Source of the DNA: Rubrivivax sp.
Lineage (GTDB): Bacteria; Pseudomonadota; Gammaproteobacteria; Burkholderiales; Burkholderiaceae_C
Length of the DNA stretch: 64,000 nucleotides
NCBI GenBank assembly: GCA_022842595.1
Contig: JALHPF010000001.1
Coordinates: forward strand, 124,001-188,000
Direction: 5' to 3'
Shown here: piece after piece, positions 27,420 through 56,860 of the stretch
Layout of the letters: each line of letters opens with the position of its first letter
Position numbering within the stretch: position 1 is the stretch's first letter
The notes under the pieces: model-generated
Databases searched by the model: none
What the model was told of the DNA's origin: nothing
The model's input: only the letters and a program-made list of their open reading frames with translations
Made by a program: the position numbers and the translations under genes

Positions 27420-27505
27420 ATGGTTCGGGAAGAATAGGGCCTTCTGTGCCCGGCCACAGCGGCCCCAGGCGCACGCGAGTTTTTCAGCAACCTGCACTTC
27501 TCACC

Positions 27506-29041
27506 ATGACACTGCATGAACTCCTGAACGCGGGCGCAGACGATGCGGTCGCCCTCGCCGCCCCGGGCCGGCCGGCGCTCGACTACCGCGGGCTGCGCGC
27601 CCTGGTGGCCGAGACCATGACGGTTCTGAATGCCGCCGGCATCGGCCGCAACGACCGCGTCGCCATCGTCCTGCCCAACGGGCCGGAAATGGCCAGCTGC
27701 TTCCTGGCTTGCGCCAGCGCCGTCACCAGTGCGCCGCTGAACCCGGCCTACCGCGTCGACGAATTCGAGTTCTACCTGAACGACCTGCAGGCCAGCGCGC
27801 TGATCGTCGAGCAGGGCAGCATCTCGCCGGCAGTGGAAGCGGCCAGCAAGCTGGGCATCCGCGTCATCGAACTGCTGGTGGCCGACGGCGCCCCGGCCGG
27901 GCATTTCAGCCTGGCCAGCCAGACCGCCGTGCCCTGCGACCACGGCGGCCCCTCGCAGCCGGGTGACGTCGGCATGGTGCTGCACACCTCGGGCACCACC
28001 TCGCGACCCAAGCGTGTGCCGCTGTCGGTGGCCAACCTGTGTGCGTCGGCCGGGCACATCGCCGCCACGCTGCAGTTCACGGCCAGCGACATCGGCCTGA
28101 ACATCATGCCGATGTTCCACATCCACGGCCTGATGGCCGGGCTGCTGGCGCCGCTGTCGGCCGGATCGCGGGTGTTCTGCACACCGGGCTTCAATGCCCT
28201 GCGTTTCTTCAAGTGGATGGACGAGGCCCACCCCACCTGGTACACCGCCGTGCCCACCATGCACCTGGCGATTGCCACCCGCGGCAAGCACAACGCCGAG
28301 GTGCTGGCGCGCCACCCGCTGCGCTTCATCCGTTCCTCTTCGTCGCCGATGCCGCCGCAGCTGATCACGCAGCTGGAAACGATGTTCAAGGCGCCACTGA
28401 TCGAGTCCTACGGCATGACCGAGGCGGCGCACCAGATGGCATCCAACCCGCTGCCGCCGCTGGCACGCAAGCCGGGCTCGGTCGGCCGCGCCGCCGGCCC
28501 GGAAGTGCGCATCCGCGCCGAGGACGGCAGCTTCCTGGCCGCCGGCGAGATCGGCGAGGTGGTGATCCGCGGCCCGAACGTCACGGCCGGCTACGAAAGC
28601 AACCCCAAGGCCAACGAGGAAGCCTTCCAGGACGGCTGGTTCCGCACCGGCGACCAGGGCACGATGGACGACGAGGGCTACCTCAGCATCACCGGCCGGC
28701 TCAAGGAGATCATCAACCGCGGCGGCGAGAAGGTGAGCCCGCGCGAGATCGACGAGATCCTGCTCGACCATGTCTCGGTGGCCCAGGTCATCGTCTTCGG
28801 CGCCCCGCACAAGCGCCTGGGCGAAGAAGTGGCGGCGATGGTGGTGCTGCACGAAGGCCATGAATGCACCGAACGCGAACTGCAGCAGTTCGTGGCCCAG
28901 CGCGTGGCCGGCTACAAGGTGCCGAAGAAGATCCTGTTCGTCGACGAACTGCCCAAGGGGGCGACCGGCAAGCTGCAGCGCATCGGCCTGGCGCAGCGCA
29001 TCGGCCTGGGCTTCGGCTCCTTCGTTTCCGGGGAGTTCTAA
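27506..29041 (+). CDS. AMP-dependent acyl-CoA synthetase, probably oxalate-CoA ligase
   Basis: MTLHELLNAGADDAVALAAPGRPALDYRGLRALV; LHTSGTTSRPKRVPLS; KEIINRGGEKVSPREID; substrate inferred from the nearby oxc/frc genes. Confidence 0.8.
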   Translation: MTLHELLNAGADDAVALAAPGRPALDYRGLRALVAETMTVLNAAGIGRNDRVAIVLPNGPEMASCFLACASAVTSAPLNPAYRVDEFEFYLNDLQASALIVEQGSISPAVEAASKLGIRVIELLVADGAPAGHFSLASQTAVPCDHGGPSQPGDVGMVLHTSGTTSRPKRVPLSVANLCASAGHIAATLQFTASDIGLNIMPMFHIHGLMAGLLAPLSAGSRVFCTPGFNALRFFKWMDEAHPTWYTAVPTMHLAIATRGKHNAEVLARHPLRFIRSSSSPMPPQLITQLETMFKAPLIESYGMTEAAHQMASNPLPPLARKPGSVGRAAGPEVRIRAEDGSFLAAGEIGEVVIRGPNVTAGYESNPKANEEAFQDGWFRTGDQGTMDDEGYLSITGRLKEIINRGGEKVSPREIDEILLDHVSVAQVIVFGAPHKRLGEEVAAMVVLHEGHECTERELQQFVAQRVAGYKVPKKILFVDELPKGATGKLQRIGLAQRIGLGFGSFVSGEF

Positions 29042-30115: not shown

Positions 30116-30129
30116 TTGACTGCGGTCAA
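30116..30129. promoter_or_regulatory. FNR-type palindromic operator upstream of tctCBA
   Basis: TTGACTGCGGTCAA (TTGA-N6-TCAA), exact reverse complement of the site at 35103-35116. Confidence 0.68.
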
Positions 30130-30242
30130 TCGCGTTCCACTCCTCGGTGATCGACCATCGCAACGCGGACCCGGTCAAGGTGGGCTTCTCAGACAAGCAG
30201 ACCGCCACTTCCACTCATTGACAAAGACTAGGAGACAACCTG

Positions 30243-31274
30243 ATGAATGCAGTTCGGATTTCCACGGGCCTGCCCCACCGCCTGGGCAAGCTCGCCCAGG
30301 GTTTGTTGGGCGTGGCTGCCGCCATCGGCATGAGCACAGCGGCCCAGGCCTGGGAACCGACCAAGCCGGTCGAGTTCATCATTCCCGCCGGCACTGGCGG
30401 CGGCGCCGACCAGATGGCACGCCTGATCCAGGGCATCATCAGCAAGAACAACCTGATGAAGGGCAACATGGTGGTGGTCAACAAGTCCGGCGGCGCAGGT
30501 GCCGAGGGCTTTCTGGCCGTGAAGGAAGCCAAGGGCGACCCGCACAAGATCATCATCACGCTGTCGAACCTGTTCACCACACCGATGGCCACGGGCGTGC
30601 CCTTCAACTGGAAGGACATGACGCCGGTGCAGATGATGGCGCTCGACCAGTTCGTGCTGTGGGTCAACGCCGAGACGCCGTACAAGACGGCCTCCGACTA
30701 CATCGCCGCCGTCAAGGCCGCGGGCCCGCTGAAGATGAAGATGGGCGGCACCGGCTCGAAGCAGGAAGACCAGATCATCACGGTCGGCCTCGAAAAGGCC
30801 ACCGGTACCAAGTTCATCTACGTGCCCTACAAGGGCGGTGGTGAAGTGGCCGTGCAGCTGGTGGGTGGCCACGTGAATTCGACGGTGAACAACCCGGCCG
30901 AAGCCGTGTCGCAATGGCGTGCCGGCACGGTTCGCCCTCTGTGCGTGTTCGATGACACGCGCATGCCCTACAAGACCAAGGTCACCGACACCATGTCCTG
31001 GGCCGACATCCCGACCTGCAAGGAATCGGGCGTGCCCACCGACTACGTCATGCTGCGCGGCATCTTCATGGCACCGGGCGTGACGCCCGAGCAGGTGAAG
31101 TACTTCGACGACCTGATGACCAAGGTGCGCGGCACGCCGGAGTGGAAGGAATACCTCGAGCGTGGTGCCTTCAACACCACCACCCTGTCGGGCGACGCCT
31201 TCCGCAAGTGGCTCGAAGGTGCCGAGGCGAACCACCGCACGCTGATGACCGAAGCGGGCTTCATGGCGAAGTAA
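30243..31274 (+). CDS. Tripartite tricarboxylate transporter substrate-binding protein (TctC/Bug family)
   Basis: WEPTKPVEFIIPAGTGGGADQMARLIQGII; YVPYKGGGEVAVQLVGGHVNSTVNNPAE. Confidence 0.92.
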   Translation: MNAVRISTGLPHRLGKLAQGLLGVAAAIGMSTAAQAWEPTKPVEFIIPAGTGGGADQMARLIQGIISKNNLMKGNMVVVNKSGGAGAEGFLAVKEAKGDPHKIIITLSNLFTTPMATGVPFNWKDMTPVQMMALDQFVLWVNAETPYKTASDYIAAVKAAGPLKMKMGGTGSKQEDQIITVGLEKATGTKFIYVPYKGGGEVAVQLVGGHVNSTVNNPAEAVSQWRAGTVRPLCVFDDTRMPYKTKVTDTMSWADIPTCKESGVPTDYVMLRGIFMAPGVTPEQVKYFDDLMTKVRGTPEWKEYLERGAFNTTTLSGDAFRKWLEGAEANHRTLMTEAGFMAK

Positions 31275-31449
31275 TCGCCCCCGGGGCTGGCGCTGCAGCA
31301 GCGCCGCCCCACCCCCGCACCCCCACCCCAAAAAACCCGGTTCACCGGCCCGGCCAAGACGCCGAGCCACCTGGATGCAGGCCCGAAAGGCCTGGGTCTG
31401 GCCGCAGGCTTGCCCGCTGCCAGGCGCCACCCGCAAGAAGGAGATTTCA

Positions 31450-31974
31450 ATGTCCGACGAACATGACGACGACCAAGACGACACCCCGGCGGTGGCCAAG
31501 AACGCCACGGTGGACGCCGTGGTGGCCGGCCTGCTGCTGGTACTGGGCATCGTGGTGATGTGGGAGGCGCAACGCCTGGGCGCCGGCTGGACCACGGACG
31601 GCCCGGGCTCGGGCTACTTCCCCTTCTACATCGGCCTGTTGATCACCATTTCTGCGGTCGGCATCCTGTTCCAGTCGCTGTTCTCGAAATCGCGCGACCT
31701 CGGCACCTTCGCCACCGTCAAGCAGACCAAGCAGGTGGCTTCGGTGCTGCTCCCCGCAGGCCTGTACGTGCTGGCGGTGACCTTCCTCGGGCTGTACGTG
31801 GCCTCGGCCATCTACATCGCCCTGTTCATGATCATCCTGGGCAAGTACTCGCGGCTGAAGAGCGTGCTCGTCGGCCTGGGCGTGGCTGTCTATTTCTTCC
31901 TGATGTTCGAGGTCTGGTTCAAGGTGCCTCTGTACAAGGGCATGCTCAACCCGACCGGTTTCCTCGGTTACTGA
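31450..31974 (+). CDS. Tripartite tricarboxylate transporter TctB family protein
   Basis: Small multi-TM protein between TctC and TctA; VVMWEAQRLGAGWTTDGPGSGYFPFYIGLL. Confidence 0.9.
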   Translation: MSDEHDDDQDDTPAVAKNATVDAVVAGLLLVLGIVVMWEAQRLGAGWTTDGPGSGYFPFYIGLLITISAVGILFQSLFSKSRDLGTFATVKQTKQVASVLLPAGLYVLAVTFLGLYVASAIYIALFMIILGKYSRLKSVLVGLGVAVYFFLMFEVWFKVPLYKGMLNPTGFLGY

Positions 31975-32002
31975 CGCGCAAGCTGCAGCGGAGTTCGACC
32001 CC

Positions 32003-33532
32003 ATGACTGAACTGTCCTCACTCTTCCAGGGCTTCGCCGTCATCATGACGCCGATGAACCTGGGCCTCATGGTCCTGGGCATCGTGCTCGGTGTGCTCAT
32101 CGGCGTTCTGCCCGGCCTGGGTGGCGCCAACGGCGTGGCCATCCTTCTGCCACTGACGTTCTCGATGTCGCCCACCTCGGCGATCGTGATGCTGTCGTGC
32201 ATCTACTGGGGCGCGCTGTTCGGTGGCGCCATCACCTCCATCCTGTTCAACATACCGGGTGAACCCTGGTCGGTGGCCACCACCTTCGACGGCTATCCGA
32301 TGGCACAGAAAGGCAAGGCAGCACGAGCGCTGACCGCCGCCTTTACCTCGTCGTTCGTCGGTGCCTTCGTGGCCGTGGTCATGATCACCTTCCTGGCGCC
32401 GCTGGTCGCCAAGTTCGCGCTCAAGTTCGGGGCCCCGGAGTTCTTCTCGGTCTACTTACTGACCTTCTGCAGCTTCGTCGGCATGGGCAAGGGTTCGCCC
32501 TTCAAGACCCTGGCGGCGATGGCCCTGGGCTTCGCCCTGGCGGCCGTGGGCCTGGACACCGTCACCGGCCAGCTGCGGCTGACCTTCGGCTCGGCTGAAC
32601 TGATGCGCGGCTTCGACTTCCTGATCGCGGTGATCGGCCTGTTCGGCATCGGCGAGATCCTGCTGTCGATGGAAGAAGGCCTGAAGTTCTCGGGCAAGAC
32701 GGCCAAGATCGACATGAAGATCGTCTGGGAGACCTGGAAGGAACTGCCGCGCTACTGGGCCACTTCGCTGCGCAGCTCCTTCGTCGGCATCTGGATGGGC
32801 ATCACCCCCGGCGGTGCCACACCGGCCTCGTTCATGAGCTACGGCCTGGCGAAGAAGTTCTCGAAGAACGGCTCGAAGTTCGGCACCGGTGAGATCGAGG
32901 GCATCGTCGCCCCCGAGACCGCCGCCCACGCCGCCGGTACCGCCGCCATGCTGCCGATGCTGGCGCTGGGCATCCCCGGCTCGCCCACGGCCGCCGTGCT
33001 GCTGGGTGGCCTGCTGATCTGGGGTCTGCAGCCCGGGCCGCTGCTCTTCGTCGAGCAGAAGGACTTCGTCTGGGGCCTGATCGCCAGCATGTACCTGGGC
33101 AACCTGGTCGGCCTGCTGATCGTGCTGACGACGGTGCCGCTGTTCGCGTCGATCCTGCGCATCCCGTTCTCGATCATCGCGCCGGTGATCATCGTGGTCT
33201 GCGCCATCGGTGCCTATACGGTGAACACGGCCATGCTGGACATCTGGTTCATGCTGCTCTTCGGGGTCATGGGCTATGTGTTCAAGAAGCTCGACTACCC
33301 GATCGCACCGCTGGTGCTGGCCCTGGTGCTGGGTGGCAAGACCGAAGACTCGTTCCGCCAGGCCATGCTGGTGTCGCAGGGCGACTTGAGCATCATGTTC
33401 GCCAACCCGCTGGTGGGTTCGATCACCACGCTGGCGCTGATCATGCTGCTGTGGCCGCTGCTGTCGAAGCTGCTGGCCCTGGTGCGCCCCCCGAAGGTTG
33501 ACGAACTGGCTGCACAGCGGCCTGTGGACTGA
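32003..33532 (+). CDS. Tripartite tricarboxylate transporter TctA family permease
   Basis: LGVLIGVLPGLGGANGVAILLPLTFSMSPTSAIVMLSCIYWGALFGGAITSILFNIPGEP. Confidence 0.95.
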   Translation: MTELSSLFQGFAVIMTPMNLGLMVLGIVLGVLIGVLPGLGGANGVAILLPLTFSMSPTSAIVMLSCIYWGALFGGAITSILFNIPGEPWSVATTFDGYPMAQKGKAARALTAAFTSSFVGAFVAVVMITFLAPLVAKFALKFGAPEFFSVYLLTFCSFVGMGKGSPFKTLAAMALGFALAAVGLDTVTGQLRLTFGSAELMRGFDFLIAVIGLFGIGEILLSMEEGLKFSGKTAKIDMKIVWETWKELPRYWATSLRSSFVGIWMGITPGGATPASFMSYGLAKKFSKNGSKFGTGEIEGIVAPETAAHAAGTAAMLPMLALGIPGSPTAAVLLGGLLIWGLQPGPLLFVEQKDFVWGLIASMYLGNLVGLLIVLTTVPLFASILRIPFSIIAPVIIVVCAIGAYTVNTAMLDIWFMLLFGVMGYVFKKLDYPIAPLVLALVLGGKTEDSFRQAMLVSQGDLSIMFANPLVGSITTLALIMLLWPLLSKLLALVRPPKVDELAAQRPVD

Positions 33533-33547
33533 AGCGGAGCAATCAAC

Positions 33548-34381
33548 ATGCCTGTCATCGCACTCACACAAGGAATGGGCTCACTGGCCCAGGACGTCGC
33601 CGAACAGCTGGCCGACGAACTTCAGCTGGCCACGCTGCAACACGAGGTGGCTGAACGCGTGGCCGAGAAGATGCACGTCTCGCGCAGCCTCATCAACCGC
33701 CTGCGCACCGGCCAGGCCGGAACGTTCGAGCGGCTGCGCAGCGACCGCCATGCCATGGCCCTGTACTCGGCCGAAGAAGTGCTGGAAGCCGCTGCCAAGG
33801 GCAACGTGGTCATCCGCGGCTGGGGCGCCACGGCGCTGCTGCGCGCGGTGCCGCACATCCCGTGCATCCGCATCATGCGGCCACTCGACAAGCGCGTGCA
33901 GTGGCTGATGGACGAGATCGGCACCGATGACCGCAGCGTTGCCGAGGCCGAGATCCGGCGCAGCGACGAGGCCAATGCCAGCCGCATGCAGGACCAGTTC
34001 GGCGTGGCCTGGAACGAACCGGTGCTCTTCGACGCCGTGCTCAATACCGACCGACTGAGCGTGGCCAGCTGCGTGCAGACCATCCGCACGCTGCTGTCGC
34101 GACCCGAGTTCCAGGAGACACCCGAGTCGCGCGCCCTGCTCGACGGCCTGGCCCTGAGTGCACACGTGCGCGCCGCGCTGCGCGCCCACGAAGAAACCCA
34201 CGGCGTCGACATCACCATCGAAAGCCAGGGCGGCCAGCTCACCCTGCGCGGCATCGTCGCCAGCAACGAGGAAAAAGCAGCGGCGGTGCGGGTGAGCACC
34301 GGCGTGGCGGGTGTGCTGTCGGTCGACGACCAGTTGCGCGTGATGTCGCGCTCGAAGCTCTTCCCTTCAGCCCGCCAATGA
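33548..34381 (+). CDS. Cytidylate-kinase-like protein with C-terminal BON domain
   Basis: MPVIALTQGMGSLAQDVAEQLADELQL...VVIRGWGATALLRAVPHIPCIRIMRPLDKRVQWLMD; C-terminal VDITIESQGGQLTLRGIVASNEEKAAAVRVSTGVAGVLSVDDQLRV. Confidence 0.72.
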   Translation: MPVIALTQGMGSLAQDVAEQLADELQLATLQHEVAERVAEKMHVSRSLINRLRTGQAGTFERLRSDRHAMALYSAEEVLEAAAKGNVVIRGWGATALLRAVPHIPCIRIMRPLDKRVQWLMDEIGTDDRSVAEAEIRRSDEANASRMQDQFGVAWNEPVLFDAVLNTDRLSVASCVQTIRTLLSRPEFQETPESRALLDGLALSAHVRAALRAHEETHGVDITIESQGGQLTLRGIVASNEEKAAAVRVSTGVAGVLSVDDQLRVMSRSKLFPSARQ

Positions 34382-34422
34382 GCGGTGCCGGGGCTTCGGC
34401 TCCAACCCGCCTGCCGGTCCGT

Positions 34423-35043
34423 TCAGATCTTGCCGCGCTGCTTCAGGCGCGACAGGGTCTCGGCAGAAAGGTTCAGGTAGGCCGCCAGTTCCTTCTTCGG
34501 AATGCGCTCGGCCAGGTCCGCGTGCTTGCGCATGAAGCGGTGCACACGCCCCGGCGCGTCAAGCAGGTGCAGCGTGATCGTGTGCGCCATGATCTCGCTC
34601 ATCAGCCGCATGACCTCGTACTCGAATTCGGCCTTGACGCGCGGGTAGCGGTCGAGGAATTCAACCCATTGCGGCATCGGCAGCTTGGCCACGCGCACCT
34701 TGGTGACGCTGACGATGGCGTAGGGCGTGGGCATGTTCAGTCGCCAAGCGGCGTAGCTGGTCTCGATGCCACGCTCGTCGGTGAAGCGCAGGATCATCTC
34801 CTTCGCGTCGGCACTGGTGACGACACGCTTGAGGATGCCTTCGAGCAGGAAGTACTGCTCCATCGCATGCACCCCCTGGTGCAGCAGGTAGTCGCCTTTC
34901 GCGCAGTCGACGATCACCAGTTGCCGGCCGAGTTCGTTCCACTCGGTGTCCGTCACCGTCTTCAGCATGTCGTTCTGCCGAAGCTGCAAACGGATGATGT
35001 CTCTTTCGGGGTGCTGCGCAAGCGGAATCATCGGTACAGACAC
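34423..35043 (-). CDS. CRP/FNR family transcriptional regulator
   Basis: cNMP-type beta-roll GDYLLHQGVHAMEQYFLLEGILKRVV; HTH IPKKELAAYLNLSAETLSRLKQRGKI with an ExxSR recognition motif. Confidence 0.9.
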   Translation of the reverse strand: MSVPMIPLAQHPERDIIRLQLRQNDMLKTVTDTEWNELGRQLVIVDCAKGDYLLHQGVHAMEQYFLLEGILKRVVTSADAKEMILRFTDERGIETSYAAWRLNMPTPYAIVSVTKVRVAKLPMPQWVEFLDRYPRVKAEFEYEVMRLMSEIMAHTITLHLLDAPGRVHRFMRKHADLAERIPKKELAAYLNLSAETLSRLKQRGKI

Positions 35044-35102
35044 GTCTTCAAGCTTCCCCTGCTCCCTGTTCTTCCTTTGAATTCGCAGTCAATTTTCGAA
35101 TC

Positions 35103-35116
35103 TTGACCGCAGTCAA
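35103..35116. promoter_or_regulatory. FNR-type palindromic operator between CRP/FNR gene and oxc
   Basis: TTGACCGCAGTCAA; a degenerate companion TTGAATTCGCAGTCAA lies at 35077-35092. Confidence 0.68.
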
Positions 35117-35182
35117 CAGCGAAGCGAAACCGTCGCTTTTACCATAGCCAGCGTTCAATTCCGCTGCATTTCGGAGCCTGCC

Positions 35183-36940
35183 ATGTCAGCCAACCTCGCG
35201 CCCGTCGCGTCCGTCTCGCCAATCACCGACGAATCGCCGACCACCGACGGCTTCAACCTCGTCATCGACGCGCTGAAGCTCAACGGCATCAAGACGATCT
35301 ACGGCCTGCCCGGCATTCCCATCACCGACCTCACTCGCAAGGCCCAGGCCCAGGGCCTGCGTGTCATCTCCTTCCGCCATGAGCAGAACGCAGGCAATGC
35401 CGCGGCCATCGCCGGCTTCATGACCGGCCAGCCGGGCGTGTGCCTCACCGTGTCGGCCCCTGGCTTCCTGAACGGCCTGACGGCGCTGGCCAATGCCACG
35501 ACGAACTGCTTCCCGATGATCCTGATCAGCGGCTCGAGCGAGCGCGAGATCGTCGACCTGCAGCAAGGCGACTACGAAGAGATGGACCAGGTCGCGGTCG
35601 CCAAGTCGCTGTGCAAGGCGGCCTTCCGCGTGCTCAATGCCGAAGACATCGGCGTGGGCATCGCACGCGCCATCCGCGCGGCCGTGTCGGGCCGCCCGGG
35701 CGGTGTCTACCTCGACCTGCCGGCCAAGCTGTTCTCGCAAGCCATGGACGCCGCCGCCGGCACCGCTTCGCTGATCAAGGTCGTCGACCCGGCGCCGCGG
35801 CAGATTCCCGCGCCCGATGCCGTGCAGCGCGCGCTCGACCTGCTCAAGGGCGCGAAGAAGCCGCTGATCCTGCTGGGCAAGGGCGCCGCCTACGCCCGCG
35901 CCGACGCCGACATCCGCGCGCTCGTCGAACGCTCGGGCATCCCTTACCTGCCGATGTCCATGGCCAAGGGCCTGCTGCCCGACACCCATGAACTCTCGGC
36001 CGCGGCCGCACGTTCCTACGTGCTGCCCGAAGCCGACGTGGTGCTGCTCATCGGCGCGCGCCTGAACTGGCTGCTGTCGCACGGCAAGGGCAAGACCTGG
36101 GGCGGCAAGGACCACAAGGCCTGGGGTGGCCAGAAATTCATCCAGATCGACATCTCGCCCACTGAAATGGACAGCAACGTGCGCATCGACGCACCGCTGG
36201 TCGGCGACATCGGTTCCTGCGTCGCAGCGCTGCTGGGCGGCATCGACGCGCAGTGGCCCAAGCCGCCGGCCGAATGGCTGAACGCCGTCTTCGATCGTCG
36301 CAACAAGAACGTCGCGAAGATGGGTGAGACGCTGGCCAAGGACCCGAAGCCGATGAACTTCCACAGCGCGCTGAACGTGGTGCGCGACATCATCAAGGCC
36401 AACCCCGACGCGATGCTCGTCAACGAAGGCGCCAACGCGCTGGACTTCACGCGCTCCATCGTCGACATGTACAAGCCGCGCAAGCGCCTGGACGTGGGCA
36501 CCTGGGGCGTGATGGGCATCGGCATGGGCTTCGCCGTGGCTGCTGCCATCGAATCGGGCGAGCCGGTGATTGCCATCGAAGGCGACAGCGCATTCGGTTT
36601 CAGCGGCATGGAAGTGGAAACGATCTGCCGCTACAACCTGCCGGTCTGCGTGGTCATCATGAACAACAACGGCGTCTACCGCGGCACCGACCAGAATCTG
36701 AGCGGCGGCAGCGACGTCGCGCCCACGGTGTTCGTCAAGGACGCGCGCTACGAGAAGATGATGGAGGCCTTCGGCGGTGTCGGCGTCTACGCCACCACGC
36801 CGGCCGAACTGCGCAAGGGCATCGAAGAGGCCATCCGCTCGCGCAAGCCCACGCTCATCAACGCCATCATCGACGAGACCGCCGGCACCGAAAGCGGCCG
36901 CATCACCAGCCTGAACCCGGCAGCCGCCGCAAAGAAGTAA
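35183..36940 (+). CDS. oxc: Oxalyl-CoA decarboxylase
   Basis: ThDP enzyme; [94 protein letters not shown]. Confidence 0.96.
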
Positions 36941-37005: not shown

Positions 37006-38280
37006 ATGTCTGACAACCTTCCCCTCCAGGGCATCAAGATCATCGACTTCACGCACGTGCAGGCCGGCCCTGCGTGCACCCAGATGCTGGCCTGGTTCGG
37101 TGCCGACGTCATCAAGGTCGAGCGCCCCGGTTCCGGCGACGTCACCCGCAGCCAGCTGCGCGACATCCCCGGTGCCGATGCGCTGTACTTCACCATGCTC
37201 AACAGCAACAAGCGCTCGTTGACGCTGGACACGAAGAAGCCCGAAGGCAAGGCCGTGCTCGAGAAGCTGATCAAGGAATGCGACGTGATGGTCGAGAACT
37301 TCGGCCCCGGCGCGCTCGACCGCATGGGCTTCACCTGGGAGCACATCCAGAGCCTGAACCCCGGCATGATCCTGGCCTCGGTCAAGGGCTTCAGCGACGG
37401 CCACCACTACGAAGACCTGAAGGTCTACGAGAACGTGGCGCAGTGCGCCGGCGGTGCGGCATCGACCACCGGCTACTGGAAGGGCGAGAACTCCGGCCCG
37501 ACCATCTCCTCGGCCGCACTCGGTGATTCGAACACCGGCATGCACCTGGCCATCGGCATCCTGACGGCCTACATCGGCAGGCAGAAGACCGGCAAGGGCC
37601 AGAAGGTGGCCGTGTCGATGCAGGACTCGGTGCTGAACCTGTGCCGCGTGAAGATGCGCGACCAGCTCCGCCTGGACAAGGTGGGCTACCTGGAAGAGTA
37701 CCCGCAGTACCCGCACGAGATGGAAGCCTTCAAGGACGGCGTGGTGCCGCGTGGCGCCAACGCCGGCGGTGGCGGCCAGCCGGGCTGGATCCTGAAGTGC
37801 AAGGGCTGGGAGACCGACCCCAACGCCTATATCTACTTCACGGTGCAAGGCCACGCCTGGGACCCGATCTGCGACGCGCTGGGCAAGCCGGAATGGAAGA
37901 CCGACCCCGCCTACATGACGGCGCAGGCCCGCCAGCCACACATCATGGACATCTTCGCCACGATCGAGAACTTCATCAAGGACAAGACCAAGTTCGAAGC
38001 CGTCGACATCTTCCGCAAGTTCGACATCCCCTGCGCCCCGGTGCTGTCGATGAAGGAACTGCTGCACGACAAGTCGCTGCGCGCCAGCGGCTCGATCGTC
38101 GAGGTACCGCACAAGGTGCGTGGCAGCTACTTCACGGTGGGCAGCCCGATCAAGTTCTCGGGCATGAAGCCGGTCGTCACCGCATCGCCGCTGCTGGGTG
38201 AGCACACCGATTCGGTGCTCGCCGAACTGGGCTACTCGGCCCAGGAAATTGCCGCCATGCACGAGGTGAAGGCCGTCTGA
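37006..38280 (+). CDS. frc: Formyl-CoA:oxalate CoA-transferase
   Basis: [84 protein letters not shown]. Confidence 0.95.
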
Positions 38281-38445: not shown

Positions 38446-39693
38446 ATGGGCAAAGCACTCGACGGCGTTCGCATCCTCGACTTCACGCACGTTCAATCCG
38501 GGCCGACCTGCACCCAGCTGCTGGCCTGGCTGGGCGCCGACGTGATCAAGGTCGAGCGCCCGGGCGAAGGCGACGCCACGCGCAAGCAGCTGCGCGACAT
38601 CCCCGGCGCGGACAGCCTCTACTTCACGATGCTGAACCACAACAAGCGTTCAGTCACGATCAACACCAAGACGCCGGGCGGGCTGGCGGTGCTCGACCGC
38701 CTGATCAAGACCTGTGACGTGATGGTCGAGAACTTCGCGCCCGGCGCGCTCGAACGCATGGGCATCACCTGGCAGCACATCCAGGCGCTGAACCCGCGCA
38801 TGGTCGTGGCGTCGGTCAAGGGCTTCGGCCCCGGCCCGTACCAGGACTGCAAGGTCTACGAGAACGTGGCGCAATGCGCCGGCGGTGCAGCATCCACCAC
38901 CGGCGAGGTCGACGGCATGCCGTTGATCAGCGGGGCCCAGATCGGCGACAGCGGCACCGGCCTGCACCTGGCGTTGGGCATCGTGGCCGCGCTCTACCAA
39001 CGCAACACCACCGGCCGCGGCCAGCAGGTGCTGGCGCCGATGCAGGACGCAGTGCTGAACCTGTGCCGCGTCAAGCTGCGCGACCAGCAACGCCTGGAAC
39101 GCACTCACACGATGCACGAGTACCCGCAGTACCCGGACGGCAAGTTCGGCGACGCCGTGCCGCGCGCGGGCAACGCCTCGGGCGGCGGGCAGCCAGGCGC
39201 CATCCTCAAGTGCAAGGGTTGGGAGACCGACCCCAATGCCTACATCTACTTCATCACGCAGGCGGCCGTCTGGCCGGCCATCTGCCGCGTGATCGGCGAG
39301 CCCGGCTGGATCGACGACGAGGCCTATGCCACGCCGCAAGCCCGGCTGCTGCACCTGAAGCCGATCTTCCGGCGCATCGAACAGTGGACCATGGGCAAGG
39401 ACAAGTTCGAGGCGATGGACATCCTGAACCAGCTCGACATTCCGTGCGGGCCGATCCTCTCGATGAAAGAGATCGCCCACGAACCCTCGCTGCGCGCCAG
39501 CGGCACCGTGGTCGAGGTCGACCACCCCGAGCGCGGCAAGTACCTGACTGTCGGCAACCCGATCAAGCTGTCCGACAGCCCCACCGAAGTGACGCGTTCG
39601 CCCCTGCTGGGCGAACACACCGACGAAGTGCTGGCCCAGCTGGGCTTTGCCGCATCGGAGATCCAGGCTCTGCGCGCCGAAGGCGCGATCTGA
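38446..39693 (+). CDS. Second formyl-CoA transferase-like class III CoA-transferase
   Basis: [79 protein letters not shown]; closely similar to the copy at 37006. Confidence 0.93.
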
Positions 39694-39725: not shown

Positions 39726-41423
39726 ATGAGCCATCGAACCATTCCCATCGTCGCCGCAGCCGATTCACGCCAGCGCAAGCGATCGGCACCGAAGGGCCGC
39801 GGGGTCGAGCCCGAGGCTCTGGCCGAAGTGCAGCAGCTGCTCGGCGCTTCCTCGCGCTCACGCGACCTGCTGATCGAACATCTGCACAAGCTGCAGGACC
39901 GCTTCGGTCATCTCAGTGCCCGCCACCTGGCCGCATTGGCACGCGAGATGGACATGGCGCAGACCGAGGTCTACGAAGTCGCCACCTTCTATCACCACTT
40001 CGACGTCGTCAAGGAAGGCGAAGTCGCTCCGGCCGCTCTCACCGTGCGCGTGTGCGACGGCCTCTCGTGCGAGATGGCCGGTGCCGGCGAGCTGCTGCAG
40101 CGCCTGCCCGAGATCCTGGGCCGCGAGGTGCGCGTGATCGCCGCGCCCTGCATCGGCCGCTGCGAGCAGGCACCGGCCGTGGCCGTGGGCCAGCACCCGC
40201 TGGCGCAGGCCAGCACCGCGTCCGTGCTGGCTGCCGTGCGGGCCGGGCACACCACCCACCACAACGAAGGCCATGTCGACTTCGACGCCTACCTGGAAGA
40301 AGGCGGCTATGCCCTGCTGAAGACCTGCATCGCTGGCGAGCTGGACATCGACGACATCCTCAAGGAACTCGAAGGTTCGGGCCTGCGCGGCCTGGGCGGC
40401 GCGGGCTTCCCCACGGGTCGCAAGTGGCGCATCGTCCGCAACGAAGCGGCGCCGCGGCTGATGGCGGTGAACATCGACGAGGGCGAGCCTGGCACCTTCA
40501 AGGACCGGGTCTACCTCGAACGCGACCCGCACCGCTTCCTGGAAGGCATGCTCATCGCCGCCTGGGCGGTGGGCATCGCCGGCATCTACCTCTACCTGCG
40601 CGACGAGTACCACGGGTGCCGCACCATGCTGCAGGCCGAACTCGACAAGCTGCGCGCCCGCCCGCCCTGGCCGGGCATGCCACACATCGAGCTGCGCCGC
40701 GGCGCGGGTGCCTACATCTGCGGCGAAGAGTCGGCCATGATCGAGTCGATCGAAGGCAAGCGCGGCATCCCGCGGCTGCGCCCGCCTTACGTGGCCCAGG
40801 TCGGCCTGTTCGGCCGGCCGACGCTGGAACACAACTTCGAGACGCTCTACTGGGTTCGCGACATCCTCGAGCGCGGCGGCGCCTGGTTTGCCTCGCAGGG
40901 GCGCCATGGCCGCAAGGGCCTGCGCTCGTTCTCGGTGTCCGGGCGCGTGCGCCAGCCGGGCGTGAAACTGGCGCCGGCGGGCATCACCATCCGCGAACTC
41001 ATCGACGAACACTGCGGCGGCATGGCCGAAGGGCATACCTTCTACGCCTACCTGCCGGGCGGCGCTTCGGGCGGCATCCTGCCGGCGACGATGGGCGACA
41101 TCCCGCTGGACTTCGACACCCTGCAGCCCTATGGCTGCTTCATCGGCTCGGCCGCGGTGGTGGTGCTGTCCGACCAGGACACAGCCGTCGGCGCGGCGCG
41201 CAACCTGATGCGCTTCTTCAAGCACGAGTCCTGCGGCCAGTGCACGCCCTGCCGCAACGGCACGGCCAAGGCGGTGGTCCTGATCGAGCGGCCCCAGTGG
41301 GACCTGGAATTGCTGGCCGACCTGTCGGCGGTGATGCGGGACGCGTCGATCTGCGGCCTGGGCCAGGCTGCGCCCAACCCGATCGACTGTGTCGTGAAGT
41401 ACTTTCCTGAGGAACTGAAATGA
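39726..41423 (+). CDS. NAD-dependent formate dehydrogenase flavoprotein subunit (NuoE-NuoF-like fusion)
   Basis: NuoE-like VYEVATFYHHFDVV...CDGLSCEMAGA...CIGRCEQAP then NuoF-like GLRGLGGAGFPTGRKWRIV...GAGAYICGEESAMIESIEGKRGIPRLRPPY...ESCGQCTPCRNGT. Confidence 0.92.
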   Translation: MSHRTIPIVAAADSRQRKRSAPKGRGVEPEALAEVQQLLGASSRSRDLLIEHLHKLQDRFGHLSARHLAALAREMDMAQTEVYEVATFYHHFDVVKEGEVAPAALTVRVCDGLSCEMAGAGELLQRLPEILGREVRVIAAPCIGRCEQAPAVAVGQHPLAQASTASVLAAVRAGHTTHHNEGHVDFDAYLEEGGYALLKTCIAGELDIDDILKELEGSGLRGLGGAGFPTGRKWRIVRNEAAPRLMAVNIDEGEPGTFKDRVYLERDPHRFLEGMLIAAWAVGIAGIYLYLRDEYHGCRTMLQAELDKLRARPPWPGMPHIELRRGAGAYICGEESAMIESIEGKRGIPRLRPPYVAQVGLFGRPTLEHNFETLYWVRDILERGGAWFASQGRHGRKGLRSFSVSGRVRQPGVKLAPAGITIRELIDEHCGGMAEGHTFYAYLPGGASGGILPATMGDIPLDFDTLQPYGCFIGSAAVVVLSDQDTAVGAARNLMRFFKHESCGQCTPCRNGTAKAVVLIERPQWDLELLADLSAVMRDASICGLGQAAPNPIDCVVKYFPEELK

Positions 41424-44224
41424 CCGCTCGAGAAACAGTCAGCTTCAGCCTGAACGGCCGGGAAGTCACGGGCCTGAAGGGCGAGGCCCTCATCGAGATC
41501 GCCCAGCGCGAAGGCATCGAGATCCCGCGTCTTTGCTACAAGCCCGGGCTCGAGGCCGTGGGCAACTGCCGCGCCTGCGTCGTCGAGATCGACGGCGAAC
41601 GCACGCTGGCGCCTTCCTGCTGCCGCGCGGCCACCCAGGGCATGAAGGTGCGCACCGACAGCGAACGCGCCCTGCGCTCGCAAAAACTGGTGCTCGAGCT
41701 GCTGCAGTCCGACATGCCCGAGGCCGACTACACCCGCCACAACGAGGTCGACGACTGGTCGGCCCGGCTCGGCCTCGGCCGGCCTCGCTTTCCCGCACGT
41801 GAGCAGCCCGCGCAGGACCTGTCGCACCCGGCCATTGCCGTCAACCTGGACGCCTGCATCCAGTGCACCCGCTGCCTGCGCGCCTGCCGCGACGAGCAGG
41901 TCAACGACGTCATCGGCCTGGCCTTCCGCGGCGACCACGCCAAGATCGTGTTCGACATGGACGACGCCATGGGCGCGTCGACCTGCGTGGCCTGCGGCGA
42001 ATGTGTGCAGGCCTGCCCCACCGGCGCGTTGATGCCGGCGCGCGAGGCCGCCCTGGCCGTGCCCGACAAGCAGGTGGCTTCGGTCTGCCCCTATTGCGGC
42101 GTGGGCTGCCAGCTCACCTACAACGTCAAGGACAACAAGATCCTCTTCGTCGAAGGCCGCGACGGCCCCGCCAACCACGGCCGCCTGTGCGTGAAGGGCC
42201 GCTATGGCTTCGACTACGCCCACCACCCGCAGCGCCTGACGAAGCCGCTGATCCGGCGCAAGGACGCACCGCCGAAGACCGGCGACTTCGTCATGGACCC
42301 GGACCGCGTGCTCGACATCTTCCGCGAGGCCAGCTGGGAAGAAGCGCTGGACTTCGCTGGCGGCACGCTGCGCCAGATCCGCGACGACCATGGCCCGCGC
42401 TCGCTGGCGGGCTTCGGTTCGGCCAAGGGCAGCAACGAAGAGGCCTACCTGTTCCAGAAACTGGTGCGCACCGGTTTCGGCAGCAACAACGTCGACCACT
42501 GCACTCGCTTGTGCCATGCCTCTTCGGTGGTGGCCCTGCTCGAAGGCATCGGCTCGGGCGCGGTCAGCAACCCGGTGATGGACGTGATGCAGGCCGAGGT
42601 CATCGTGATCATCGGCGCCAACCCGACGGTGAACCATCCGGTGGCCGCCACCTGGATCAAGAACGCGGTGAAGAACGGCAGCAAGCTCGTCATCATGGAC
42701 CCGCGGCGCTCCGACCTGGCACGCCTGGCCCACCGCTTCGTGCAGTTCAAGCCCGACACCGACGTGGCGATGCTGAACGCGCTGATGAACGTCATCGTCA
42801 CCGAGAACCTGGTGGACGAAAGCTTCATCGCCAGCCGCACCATCGGCTACGACGAACTGCGCCGCAACGTCGCCGCCTACACGCCGGAACTGATGGCGCC
42901 GGTGTGCGGCATCGACGCGCAGACGCTGCGCGAGGTGGCCCGGCTGTACGCCACGTCCAGGGCCTCGATCATCCTCTGGGGCATGGGCGTGAGCCAGCAC
43001 GTGCACGGCACCGACAACGCCCGCTGCCTGATCGCGCTGGCCTTGATGACCGGGCAGATCGGCCGCCCTGGCACCGGCCTGCACCCATTGCGCGGGCAGA
43101 ACAACGTGCAGGGAGCATCGGATGCGGGCCTGATCCCGATGATGCTGCCCGACTACCAGCATGTGTCTCAACCCGAAGTGCGCGCCCGTTTCGAGCAGGC
43201 CTGGAAGCTGCCCGCCGGCACGCTGGACGCGCAGCCCGGCCTGACCGTGGTCGAGGTCATGCACGCCATCAAGCACGGCACCATCAAGGGCATGTACGTG
43301 CAGGGCGAGAACCCGGCGATGAGCGACCCCGACGCCAACCACGCCCGCGAGGCCCTGGCGGCGCTGGACCACCTGGTGGTGCAGGACATCTTCCTGACCG
43401 AGACCGCGTACCTGGCCGACGTGATCCTGCCCGCCGGCGCCTTCCCCGAGAAGACCGGCAGCTTCACCAACACCGACCGGCTGGTGCAGATGGGCCGCCA
43501 GGCCATCGACCCGCCGGGCGACGCGCGCCAGGACCTGTGGATCATCCAGCAGATCGGCCAGCGGCTGGGCCTGCCCTGGGACTACCAGCATGTCAGCGAA
43601 GTCTTCGACGAGATGCGGCACACCATGCCCAGCATCGGCGGCATCACCTGGGAACGGCTGGAACGCGAGCACGCCGTCACCTACCCGTGCACGAACGAAG
43701 GCGACCCGGGCGAACCAGTGGTCTTCGTCGACGACTTCCCGCGCGAAGGCGGCAAGGCGCGCTTCGTGCCGGCCGACATCATCCCGGCCGACGAACGCCC
43801 CGACGCCGAATTCCCGATGGTGCTGATCACCGGGCGCCAGCTCGAACACTGGCACACCGGCAGCATGACACGCCGCGCCAGCGTGCTGGACGCGATCGAG
43901 CCCGACCCGACGGCGCTCGTCCACCCGCTGGACCTGGCGGCGATTGGCGCGAAGCCCGGCGACATGCTCAGCATCGAGTCGCGGCGCGGCAAGGTCACGC
44001 TCTGGGCGCGGGCCGACGAAGGCACGCCGCGAGGTGCCGTCTTCGTGGCCTTTGCCTACTACGAGGCGGCCATCAACCGCCTGACCAATGCCGCGCTCGA
44101 CCCCTTCGCCAAGATCCCTGAATTCAAGTACTGCGCGGTGCGCATCCAGCGCACCAGCGAAGCGCCACAACTGGGCAGCTATGGTGGCGGCCAGCTCCTG
44201 AGCCCCACTCGAACCGAGACCTGA
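41420..44224 (+). CDS. fdhA: Formate dehydrogenase alpha subunit (molybdopterin, Cys-type)
   Basis: N-terminal 2Fe-2S, CIQCTRCLRAC and CVACGECVQACPTGAL clusters, CPYCGVGCQLTYNV, DHCTRLCHASSVVALLEGIGSGA; overlaps the upstream gene by ATGA. Confidence 0.94.
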   Translation: MTARETVSFSLNGREVTGLKGEALIEIAQREGIEIPRLCYKPGLEAVGNCRACVVEIDGERTLAPSCCRAATQGMKVRTDSERALRSQKLVLELLQSDMPEADYTRHNEVDDWSARLGLGRPRFPAREQPAQDLSHPAIAVNLDACIQCTRCLRACRDEQVNDVIGLAFRGDHAKIVFDMDDAMGASTCVACGECVQACPTGALMPAREAALAVPDKQVASVCPYCGVGCQLTYNVKDNKILFVEGRDGPANHGRLCVKGRYGFDYAHHPQRLTKPLIRRKDAPPKTGDFVMDPDRVLDIFREASWEEALDFAGGTLRQIRDDHGPRSLAGFGSAKGSNEEAYLFQKLVRTGFGSNNVDHCTRLCHASSVVALLEGIGSGAVSNPVMDVMQAEVIVIIGANPTVNHPVAATWIKNAVKNGSKLVIMDPRRSDLARLAHRFVQFKPDTDVAMLNALMNVIVTENLVDESFIASRTIGYDELRRNVAAYTPELMAPVCGIDAQTLREVARLYATSRASIILWGMGVSQHVHGTDNARCLIALALMTGQIGRPGTGLHPLRGQNNVQGASDAGLIPMMLPDYQHVSQPEVRARFEQAWKLPAGTLDAQPGLTVVEVMHAIKHGTIKGMYVQGENPAMSDPDANHAREALAALDHLVVQDIFLTETAYLADVILPAGAFPEKTGSFTNTDRLVQMGRQAIDPPGDARQDLWIIQQIGQRLGLPWDYQHVSEVFDEMRHTMPSIGGITWERLEREHAVTYPCTNEGDPGEPVVFVDDFPREGGKARFVPADIIPADERPDAEFPMVLITGRQLEHWHTGSMTRRASVLDAIEPDPTALVHPLDLAAIGAKPGDMLSIESRRGKVTLWARADEGTPRGAVFVAFAYYEAAINRLTNAALDPFAKIPEFKYCAVRIQRTSEAPQLGSYGGGQLLSPTRTET

Positions 44225-55312: not shown

Positions 55313-56860
55313 GTGAGCCATTTCAAGGATCTTCGCGTGGGCACGCGCCTGGGCCTGGCCTTCGCCGCCATCCTGGTACTGACCGTCGCCCTCGCTGGGT
55401 TTGCCGTGTATCAATTGTCCAGGGTCAACGCCACCTCGGTCGAGATGGAGAGCCGCTGGGTGCCCAGTCTGCGGCTGAGCCTGTCGATGAACAAACTGAT
55501 CAGCGCTGTCAAGATGGCAGAGCTGCGACACATGATGTCGCCCGACGCAGCGGTCAAGGCCGGCATGGAAGTCCAACTGAAGTCACTGCGGACCCAGCTG
55601 GACGGACAGCGTGCCGAGTTCGAGGCGCTGCCGGCAGGCGCAGACGCCGCAAAGAGCTGGGTCGCGTTCAAGTCGGCATGGGCGGGTTATCTGGCCGATC
55701 AGGAGAAGATCCTGCAGATGTCCAACCAGTACCAGACGGACGAAGCCCAGGCGCTTGCCAATGGGAATTCGGGACAGATGTTCGAGGCTGCCGAGAACGC
55801 GCTGGCCGCCTTGGTGGACGTGAACTCACGCGGCGTGCAGTCGGCCGGAGCCATGAGCCAGCAGGTGTTCCAGGCCGCCAAGGGCGGCATCGGTGGCGCC
55901 TTGCTGGTCATCCTGGCCCTGGGCGTGGCCGCGTCGGTGTGGACCACACGTTCGATCACGGGCCCGATCCGCGAGGCCGTGAGGGTCGCGCAGACGGTGG
56001 CAGCGGGCGACCTGGGCTCGAGGATCGAAGTCACGCGCCGCGATGAAACCGGTCAGTTGCTGGCCGCACTGAAGCACATGAACGAAAGCCTCGTCGGGAT
56101 CGTCAGCAACGTGCGCCAGAGCAGCGATTCCATCGCGACGGGCAGTTCGCAGATCGCCAGCGGCAATGCGGACCTGTCGCAGCGGACGGAAGACCAGGCC
56201 GCCCGGTTGCAGCAGACCGCCGCGTCGATGGAGGAACTGACGTCCTCGGTCAGGACCAATGCCGACACGGCCAACCTGGCGAACCAGTTCGCTGCCGGCG
56301 CCAGCGAGGCGGCGGCTCGAGGCGGCGAGGTCGTGGGTCATGTCGTGAGCACCATGCAAGGCATCACGGCGTCCAGCAAGAAGATCGGCGACATCATCGG
56401 CGTCATCGACGGCATCGCCTTCCAGACCAACATCCTGGCCTTGAACGCGGCGGTGGAAGCTGCCCGTGCCGGTGAACAGGGTCGCGGCTTTGCCGTGGTG
56501 GCCTCGGAGGTCCGTGGACTGGCACAACGCAGTGCGAAGGCATCGCGAGAGATCAAGAACCTGATCGGCGAGAGCGTAACCAAGGTGGAGACCGGCTCCC
56601 GACTGGTCGACGAGGCCGGGCGATCGATGGCCGACATCGTCCATCAGGTCGGGCGGGTGACTGAACTGATCGCCCAGATCAGCGCCGTCAGTGCCGAACA
56701 GACCGAGGGCATCGACCAGGTCGGCGGGGCCGTGCAGCAACTGGATCGCTCGACGCAGCAGAACGCAGCGTTGGTCGAAGAGAGTGCCGCCGCGGCCGAA
56801 AGCCTGAAGCAGCAGGCGGCCCGACTGGCCGAGGTGGTGGGCGCGTTCCGCATGGCCTAG
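55313..56860 (+). CDS. Methyl-accepting chemotaxis protein
   Basis: N-terminal TM, HAMP-like region, signalling core [55 protein letters not shown] start. Confidence 0.93.
   Translation: MSHFKDLRVGTRLGLAFAAILVLTVALAGFAVYQLSRVNATSVEMESRWVPSLRLSLSMNKLISAVKMAELRHMMSPDAAVKAGMEVQLKSLRTQLDGQRAEFEALPAGADAAKSWVAFKSAWAGYLADQEKILQMSNQYQTDEAQALANGNSGQMFEAAENALAALVDVNSRGVQSAGAMSQQVFQAAKGGIGGALLVILALGVAASVWTTRSITGPIREAVRVAQTVAAGDLGSRIEVTRRDETGQLLAALKHMNESLVGIVSNVRQSSDSIATGSSQIASGNADLSQRTEDQAARLQQTAASMEELTSSVRTNADTANLANQFAAGASEAAARGGEVVGHVVSTMQGITASSKKIGDIIGVIDGIAFQTNILALNAAVEAARAGEQGRGFAVVASEVRGLAQRSAKASREIKNLIGESVTKVETGSRLVDEAGRSMADIVHQVGRVTELIAQISAVSAEQTEGIDQVGGAVQQLDRSTQQNAALVEESAAAAESLKQQAARLAEVVGAFRMA

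Follow-up and report, generated by a model that had tools for sequence, protein, structure and literature searches.

The biochemistry of oxalate catabolism by formyl-CoA transferase (Frc) and oxalyl-CoA decarboxylase (Oxc) is well studied; which protein switches the genes on is the question raised by a locus of Rubrivivax sp. (GenBank assembly GCA_022842595.1). There, a 64,000-nt stretch of contig JALHPF010000001.1 (positions 124,001–188,000, renumbered from 1 and called the window below) holds an oxalate catabolic operon, oxc-frc-frc, a tripartite tricarboxylate transporter operon, tctCBA, and a gene for a Crp/Fnr-type regulator at 34423–35043 on the minus strand. From sequence comparisons, we consider it highly likely that the 34423–35043 product is a dedicated activator of oxalate catabolism, acting at TTGAC-N4-GTCAA boxes in front of oxc-frc-frc(-fds) and tctCBA, and that in relatives it governs an oxalate-to-C1 regulon.

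One palindrome before two operons

The palindrome TTGACTGCGGTCAA lies at 30116–30129, upstream of tctCBA, and its exact reverse complement, TTGACCGCAGTCAA, at 35103–35116, between the regulator gene and oxc; both are predicted operators, to which no strand is assigned. An initial annotation of this DNA had reported the identical 14-bp palindrome at both promoters, and its coordinates and reverse complementarity prove correct. At up to two mismatches, the window holds no match to the 14-mer beyond these two sites (four strand-matches at two places, where shuffles of the window predict 0.33), and 55415–55428 is the sole further place within one mismatch of TTGACN4GTCAA. The whole 5.46-Mb genome contains this pattern nine times, against one for a reversed-pattern control and about 1.2 expected from base composition; the genome-wide scan thus did not return the many unrelated occurrences that the initial annotation had named as a counter-sign. 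Only two of the nine places are both non-coding and followed, 22–23 nt downstream, by an A..AT −10-like box, and these are the two sites described here. This promoter geometry in a non-coding position is absent at all seven others, four of which fall inside long open frames (L004, L005, L007 and L008) and three of which lie near genes for a NarK-like transporter (L003), a cupin (L006) and an ABC substrate-binding protein (L009). A looser scan (TTGAY/RTCAA, −10 spacing 21–23) returns eight places in the genome, our two among them.

Two of the remaining places merit separate mention. At L003, the palindrome TTGACCGTGGTCAA (1501–1514 of that locus) is upstream of a NarK-like MFS transporter gene, has no −10 at 22/23 nt and may be an FNR/DNR-type site. 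At L009, TTGACCGGGGTCAA (1501–1514) stands about 75 bp 5′ of the predicted ABC substrate-binding protein gene, again with no −10 at the right distance; by eye the protein resembles the tungstate type, which is possibly relevant to Mo/W formate dehydrogenase.

The site follows the regulator

An orthologue scan with one genome per species yielded 80 regulator orthologues (60–94% identity). The regulator adjoins oxc in 79 of the 80 loci, and a different thiamine-pyrophosphate (TPP) enzyme takes that place in the last (L017). In 80/80 loci the promoter of this neighbour, be it oxc or the replacement TPP-enzyme gene, contains TTGA-N6-TCAA, in the exact form TTGACN4GTCAA in 79. Where the gene order is divergent, as in the window, the palindrome lies between the regulator and the oxc/TPP gene in 16 of 16 loci; in the co-directional, Polynucleobacter-type order it again lies between regulator and oxc (64/64) and never upstream of the regulator (0/64). 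Among 14 related loci, 12 carry the site upstream of tctC. The phylogenetic footprinting that the initial annotation called for therefore shows a conserved site at both promoters, not the lack of conservation in relatives that it had listed as contrary evidence.

We then sampled 399 genomes of the order Burkholderiales, with oxc called by its curated cut-off and the regulator by E < 1e-58 (the next group scores > 1e-11). oxc occurs in 75 genomes and the regulator in 76; 67 have both, 8 only oxc, 9 only the regulator and 315 neither (Fisher 1.4e-56, ignoring phylogeny). Upstream of oxc, TTGA-N6-TCAA is found in 61 of the 64 testable regulator-bearing genomes, representing 22 of 24 genera, versus none of the eight regulator-free ones. 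These eight belong to six genera and provide within-family contrasts in two families that also have regulator-bearing genera (f32 and f47). The oxc promoter keeps its site where the regulator is unlinked (L119, L127, L225 and L226), and one complete 2.1-Mb Polynucleobacter-type genome (G394) has a single TTGACN4GTCAA, located in the oxc promoter. In a phylum-wide sample, also of 399 genomes, all eight regulator matches are inside Burkholderiales. The sites, their conservation and their co-occurrence with the regulator are read directly from the sequences, as is the geometry that follows.

Promoter geometry

We compared 57 oxc promoters, dereplicated at < 65% flank identity. The search demanded TTGA and TCAA, leaving box positions 5 and 10 as the informative ones; these are C in 53/57 and G in 46/57, respectively. 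In 56 of the 57 promoters, a −10-like hexamer starts exactly 22 or 23 nt past the palindrome (other offsets average 0.9/57); a −35-like hexamer at 16–18 nt spacing is seen in only four. All 13 tctC promoters compared have xAxxxT at the same 22/23-nt offset. In the window, the −10-like boxes are GACCAT for tctC (30153–30158, plus strand) and TACCAT for oxc (35140–35145, plus strand), each starting 23 nt past the palindrome and 30.5 bp from its centre. Spacing of this size is typical of class-II activation by Crp/Fnr proteins. With a site near −41.5 relative to the predicted −10, a −10 box and mostly no −35, these promoters have the pattern of class-II activator-dependent promoters, and the palindromes are very probably activator sites of the adjacent Crp/Fnr-family regulator.

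A Crp/Fnr-type protein

The regulator (206 aa) has an N-terminal domain resembling the cyclic-nucleotide-binding β-roll, matching PF00027 above cut-off (3.8e-8). Its AlphaFold2 model (pLDDT 83.6) adopts the Crp/Fnr fold, and PDB and Foldseek searches return DNR, GlxR, CRP and FNR, with DNR on top (3dkw, about 22% identity). No Pfam helix-turn-helix match was reported for the C terminus; the Crp/Fnr helix-turn-helix is identified by an invariant ExxSR motif and modelled helices at residues 183–189 and 194–202. The motif reads ETLSR, at residues 195–199, as the initial annotation had it, and is invariant across 19 aligned orthologues. According to a study of CprK, TTGA-type and TTAA-type boxes differ in one base pair, and the residue at the position of FNR Glu-209 determines which is bound; the equivalent of Glu-209 recognises G:C in a TTGA box (PMC2610375). 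Because that position sets TTGA versus TTAA, the pairing of ETLSR with a TTGA box is coherent.

The single cysteine, Cys47, is unconserved among the aligned orthologues, and the N-terminal cysteine cluster that holds the [4Fe-4S] centre of FNR is absent. Residues 95–101 (TSYAAWR) and 107–108 (PY), almost or wholly invariant in the same alignment, may line a ligand pocket. The chain stops about seven residues past ETLSR and is wing-less in nearly all orthologues.

A wider set of predicted target genes

The combined element, site plus −10, was sought regardless of gene identity. In its strict form it gives 153 matches in 76 regulator-bearing genomes versus 48 in 76 regulator-free genomes, with 8 and 6 in the reversed controls. 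Besides oxc and tctC, it precedes stand-alone frc and an alternative TPP enzyme gene and, in relatives, the gene for formate–tetrahydrofolate (THF) ligase (fhs). At L018, it stands before a gene for an oxalate/formate antiporter (TIGR04259, 668 bits; cut-off 335) that sits in the transporter's place. This replacement, together with co-regulation and neighbourhood, is the basis on which tctCBA is a candidate oxalate transporter. Through rearrangements, the element moves with frc, the alternative TPP enzyme and the antiporter.

Twenty regions with recurring matches point to fhs, a sucC/mtkA-like gene, fds (formate dehydrogenase) and a formyltransferase-like gene. Among 60 further matches from regulator-bearing genomes, 31 precede these target genes, compared with none of 20 from regulator-free genomes (Fisher 8e-6); they comprise fhs (12), sucC/mtkA-like (11), fdsGB (5), frc (2) and formyltransferase-like (1) genes. 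The remaining 29 include many that fall inside long open frames and probably arose by chance. In other species the element-bearing targets are partly on other contigs. The word "local" in the oxalate regulon of the initial annotation is therefore too narrow, as the element of those species also stands before fhs, formate dehydrogenase genes and an operon for a CoA ligase.

That CoA-ligase operon, sucCD/mtkAB-like, follows the element in L277–L286 and L295; in the two of these loci that were read through, L277 and L283, it is accompanied by formate dehydrogenase genes. Its sucC-like product exceeds the succinate-CoA ligase cut-off and falls below that for malate-CoA ligase; the operon could serve to provide a CoA donor for oxalate by regenerating succinyl-CoA, or it could encode the malate thiokinase of the serine cycle.

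The gene of the alternative TPP enzyme, whose product is only 25–27% identical to Oxc, takes the position of oxc (regulator – TPP – frc) and carries the same element. This arrangement occurs where a genome has the regulator and no curated oxc (L178:6112–7863; also L179–L184, L017 and L296). The enzyme does not have the YE and NNNGVY motif residues of the window Oxc, and the models that it matches best, all below cut-off, are those of the acetolactate synthase-like and 2-hydroxyacyl-CoA lyase kinds. We regard it as a candidate oxalyl-CoA decarboxylase or formyl-CoA lyase.

Proposed mechanism and alternative explanations

The initial annotation proposed that the regulator acts at oxc-frc and tctCBA, and this is strongly supported by the way the site tracks the regulator (61/64 versus 0/8) and by the fixed promoter geometry. 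In the model that we infer, a Crp/Fnr-superfamily protein without the FNR cysteine cluster, dedicated to oxalate catabolism, would bind as a dimer to TTGAC-N4-GTCAA at about −41.5/−42.5 of the mostly −35-less oxc-frc-frc(-fds) and tctCBA promoters. A signal derived from oxalate, be it oxalate itself, oxalyl-CoA, formyl-CoA or formate, would prompt it to recruit RNA polymerase as a class-II activator. Import, CoA transfer and decarboxylation would then be switched on together, and formate oxidation probably with them. In relatives, the regulon would add formate–THF ligase, formate dehydrogenase, the succinate/malate-CoA ligase operon, the formyltransferase-like gene and the oxalate/formate antiporter. 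A bolder version, which we hold tentatively and rate somewhat short of probable, sees a wing-less, Burkholderiales-only Crp/Fnr subfamily that senses oxalate or a CoA-thioester and serves as master activator of an oxalate-to-C1 regulon spanning uptake, CoA transfer, decarboxylation, formate oxidation and formate–THF ligation, and that in some genomes drives a non-orthologous TPP enzyme gene in place of oxc.

Several observations weigh against this reading. The site is missing from 2 of 14 tctC promoters, no clear site precedes oxc in three regulator-bearing genomes (G180, G052 and G137), and the fhs of the window's own genome has none; the recognisable regulon of this genome therefore consists of two operons. 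The phylogenetic contrast rests on the eight oxc-only genomes, and the Fisher and Mann-Whitney values count related genomes as independent. The 20 recurrent regions were chosen after their recurrence had been seen, and the enrichment test is confined to the 60 further matches. A constant −10 distance is, by itself, compatible with repression. The proposed N4 box is paired with a regulator that has no C-terminal extension, the feature to which the 4-nt spacer of CprK/FNR boxes is attributed (PMC2610375). Finally, other Crp/Fnr proteins of the same genome have E-T-V-S-R helices (for example, L102 and L099) and could bind similar boxes.

Of the alternatives, autoregulation is compatible with the proposed regulon: one palindrome would, in addition, control the divergent regulator gene. 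In 16 loci, the region between the divergent genes holds one site, and an element pointing at the regulator is present in L167 and L169, the only such loci. On the regulator side, however, a −10-like box at 22/23 nt is found in 0 of 17 divergent loci, and the 64 co-directional loci have no site in front of the regulator gene. The control of its own gene that the initial annotation ascribed to the regulator thus finds no support, and we consider this addition unlikely. L167 and L169 are, with L155, rearranged loci in which two palindromes flank the regulator, one for frc and one for oxc.

The sites might instead belong to another Crp/Fnr protein of the cell, FNR/Anr or DNR. Oxygen or nitrogen oxides would then govern the oxalate genes, and the neighbouring regulator would have its targets elsewhere. 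In favour, 28 cNMP-domain matches are present in the genome, at least one of which (L102) is rich in cysteines and has a LETVSR helix like that of FNR, and TTGACN4GTCAA also occurs upstream of the NarK-like transporter gene noted above. Nevertheless, none of the eight oxc promoters from genomes without the neighbour regulator has the site, the f32 and f47 contrasts included, and of the 20 element matches taken from such genomes none stands before an oxalate/formate gene. The boxes published for DNR and FNR, moreover, are TTGAT-N4-ATCAA (PMC1274295 and PMC1802743), in contrast to the C at position 5 in 53 of 57 promoters. These data make an FNR or DNR assignment very unlikely.

Equally, the regulator might be a repressor that covers the promoter until released by oxalate or an acyl-CoA. 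The palindrome does sit in the −35 region, a position that repressors use as well. A repressor site would, however, tolerate variable spacing and leave a usable −35, whereas here the −10 spacing is fixed at 22/23 nt and only four promoters have a −35 hexamer, an activator-dependent pattern. Because of this fixed spacing and absent −35, we prefer activation and judge repression highly improbable. Chance or inherited similarity of the two intergenic regions, for which the roughly 1.2 palindromes per genome predicted from composition might speak, has a negligible probability and is rejected on the conservation data and the regulator dependence, the site being kept in 22 of 24 genera despite flanks below 65% identity and missing where the regulator is missing.

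Genes of the window

From tctC onward, all genes described here apart from the regulator are on the plus strand. The transporter operon comprises tctC, for the substrate-binding protein (30243–31274; PF03401, 6.3e-29), tctB (31450–31974; PF07331, 1.6e-18), for which the MSDEHDD start is likely although the longest open reading frame (ORF) runs from 31375, and tctA, for the large membrane subunit (32003–33532; PF01970, 2.4e-151). The next gene encodes a cytidylate-kinase-like protein fused to a BON domain (33548–34381; PF13189 and PF04972), and several relatives keep it in this place, flanked by tctA and the regulator (L010–L015 and L019). Beyond the regulator, whose assignment draws on PF00027, orthologues, the AlphaFold2 model and PDB matches, lie oxc (35183–36940; TIGR03254, 981 bits, cut-off 739) and two copies of frc (37006–38280; TIGR03253, 699 bits, cut-off 504; and 38446–39693, 701 bits, with a likely MGKALDG start and the longest ORF from 38326). 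The oxc and frc products both exceed curated cut-offs, marking an oxalate catabolic operon, and Pfam and NCBIfam verify the identities of oxc, both frc copies and tctC/B/A. Downstream are a fused gamma/beta, FdsGB-like subunit gene of NAD-dependent formate dehydrogenase (39726–41423; NuoF-family match) and the gene for the alpha subunit (41420–44224; TIGR01591, 765 bits, cut-off 666). We presume that the fused gene is a downstream part of the oxc transcript; its homologue in relatives is preceded by its own site and −10 element.

Upstream of the transporter, an acyl-CoA synthetase gene (27446–29041) has a FadD7-like protein as its best NCBIfam model, below cut-off, and no palindrome in front. 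Plant oxalyl-CoA synthetases are acyl-activating enzymes (AAE3), and by analogy this protein may be an oxalyl-CoA synthetase.

Comparison with known systems

With a defined regulator, operator and promoter geometry, oxalate sensing becomes directly testable and a candidate oxalate-responsive promoter becomes available. One regulon would join oxalate breakdown with formate oxidation and formate–THF ligation, and the element flags an unassigned TPP enzyme and a TTT-family transporter as likely oxalate genes. A literature search that covered few subscription papers found no account of a Crp/Fnr regulator for oxc/frc, nor of any other transcription factor for Frc/Oxc-based oxalate catabolism. The box itself is already known from HcpR, whose predicted consensus in delta-proteobacteria and cyanobacteria is TTGACnnnnGTCAA (PMC1274295); it is for the pairing of regulator and regulon that the literature searched gave no precedent.

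HcpR shares the TTGACN4GTCAA box with the present regulator (PMC1274295). It is, however, linked to and controls hcp, frdX and norB, whereas the present regulator neighbours oxc, frc and tct and is confined to one order in our order and phylum samples. FNR/Anr and DNR resemble it in their E-x-x-S-R helix, TTGA-N6-TCAA box and class-II architecture. Their box is TTGAT-N4-ATCAA rather than TTGAC-N4-GTCAA, and the targets here are oxalate and formate genes. FNR has a cysteine cluster for its Fe-S centre, which the present regulator would lack since it has one cysteine only, at residue 47. E. coli CRP has in common with it the cNMP-binding-like N-terminal domain and class-II geometry, but binds TGTGA-N6-TCACA, not a TTGAC box, and on the NCBIfam CRP equivalog our regulator scores 21 bits against a cut-off of 266. 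CprK is likewise a Crp/Fnr-fold protein with a 5-N4-5 palindrome, in which an organic effector activates a dedicated catabolic/respiratory operon (PMC2610375). It differs in its TTAAT-N4-ATTAA box, in having Val for Glu in the helix and in carrying the C-terminal extension that the oxalate regulator does not have (PMC2610375).

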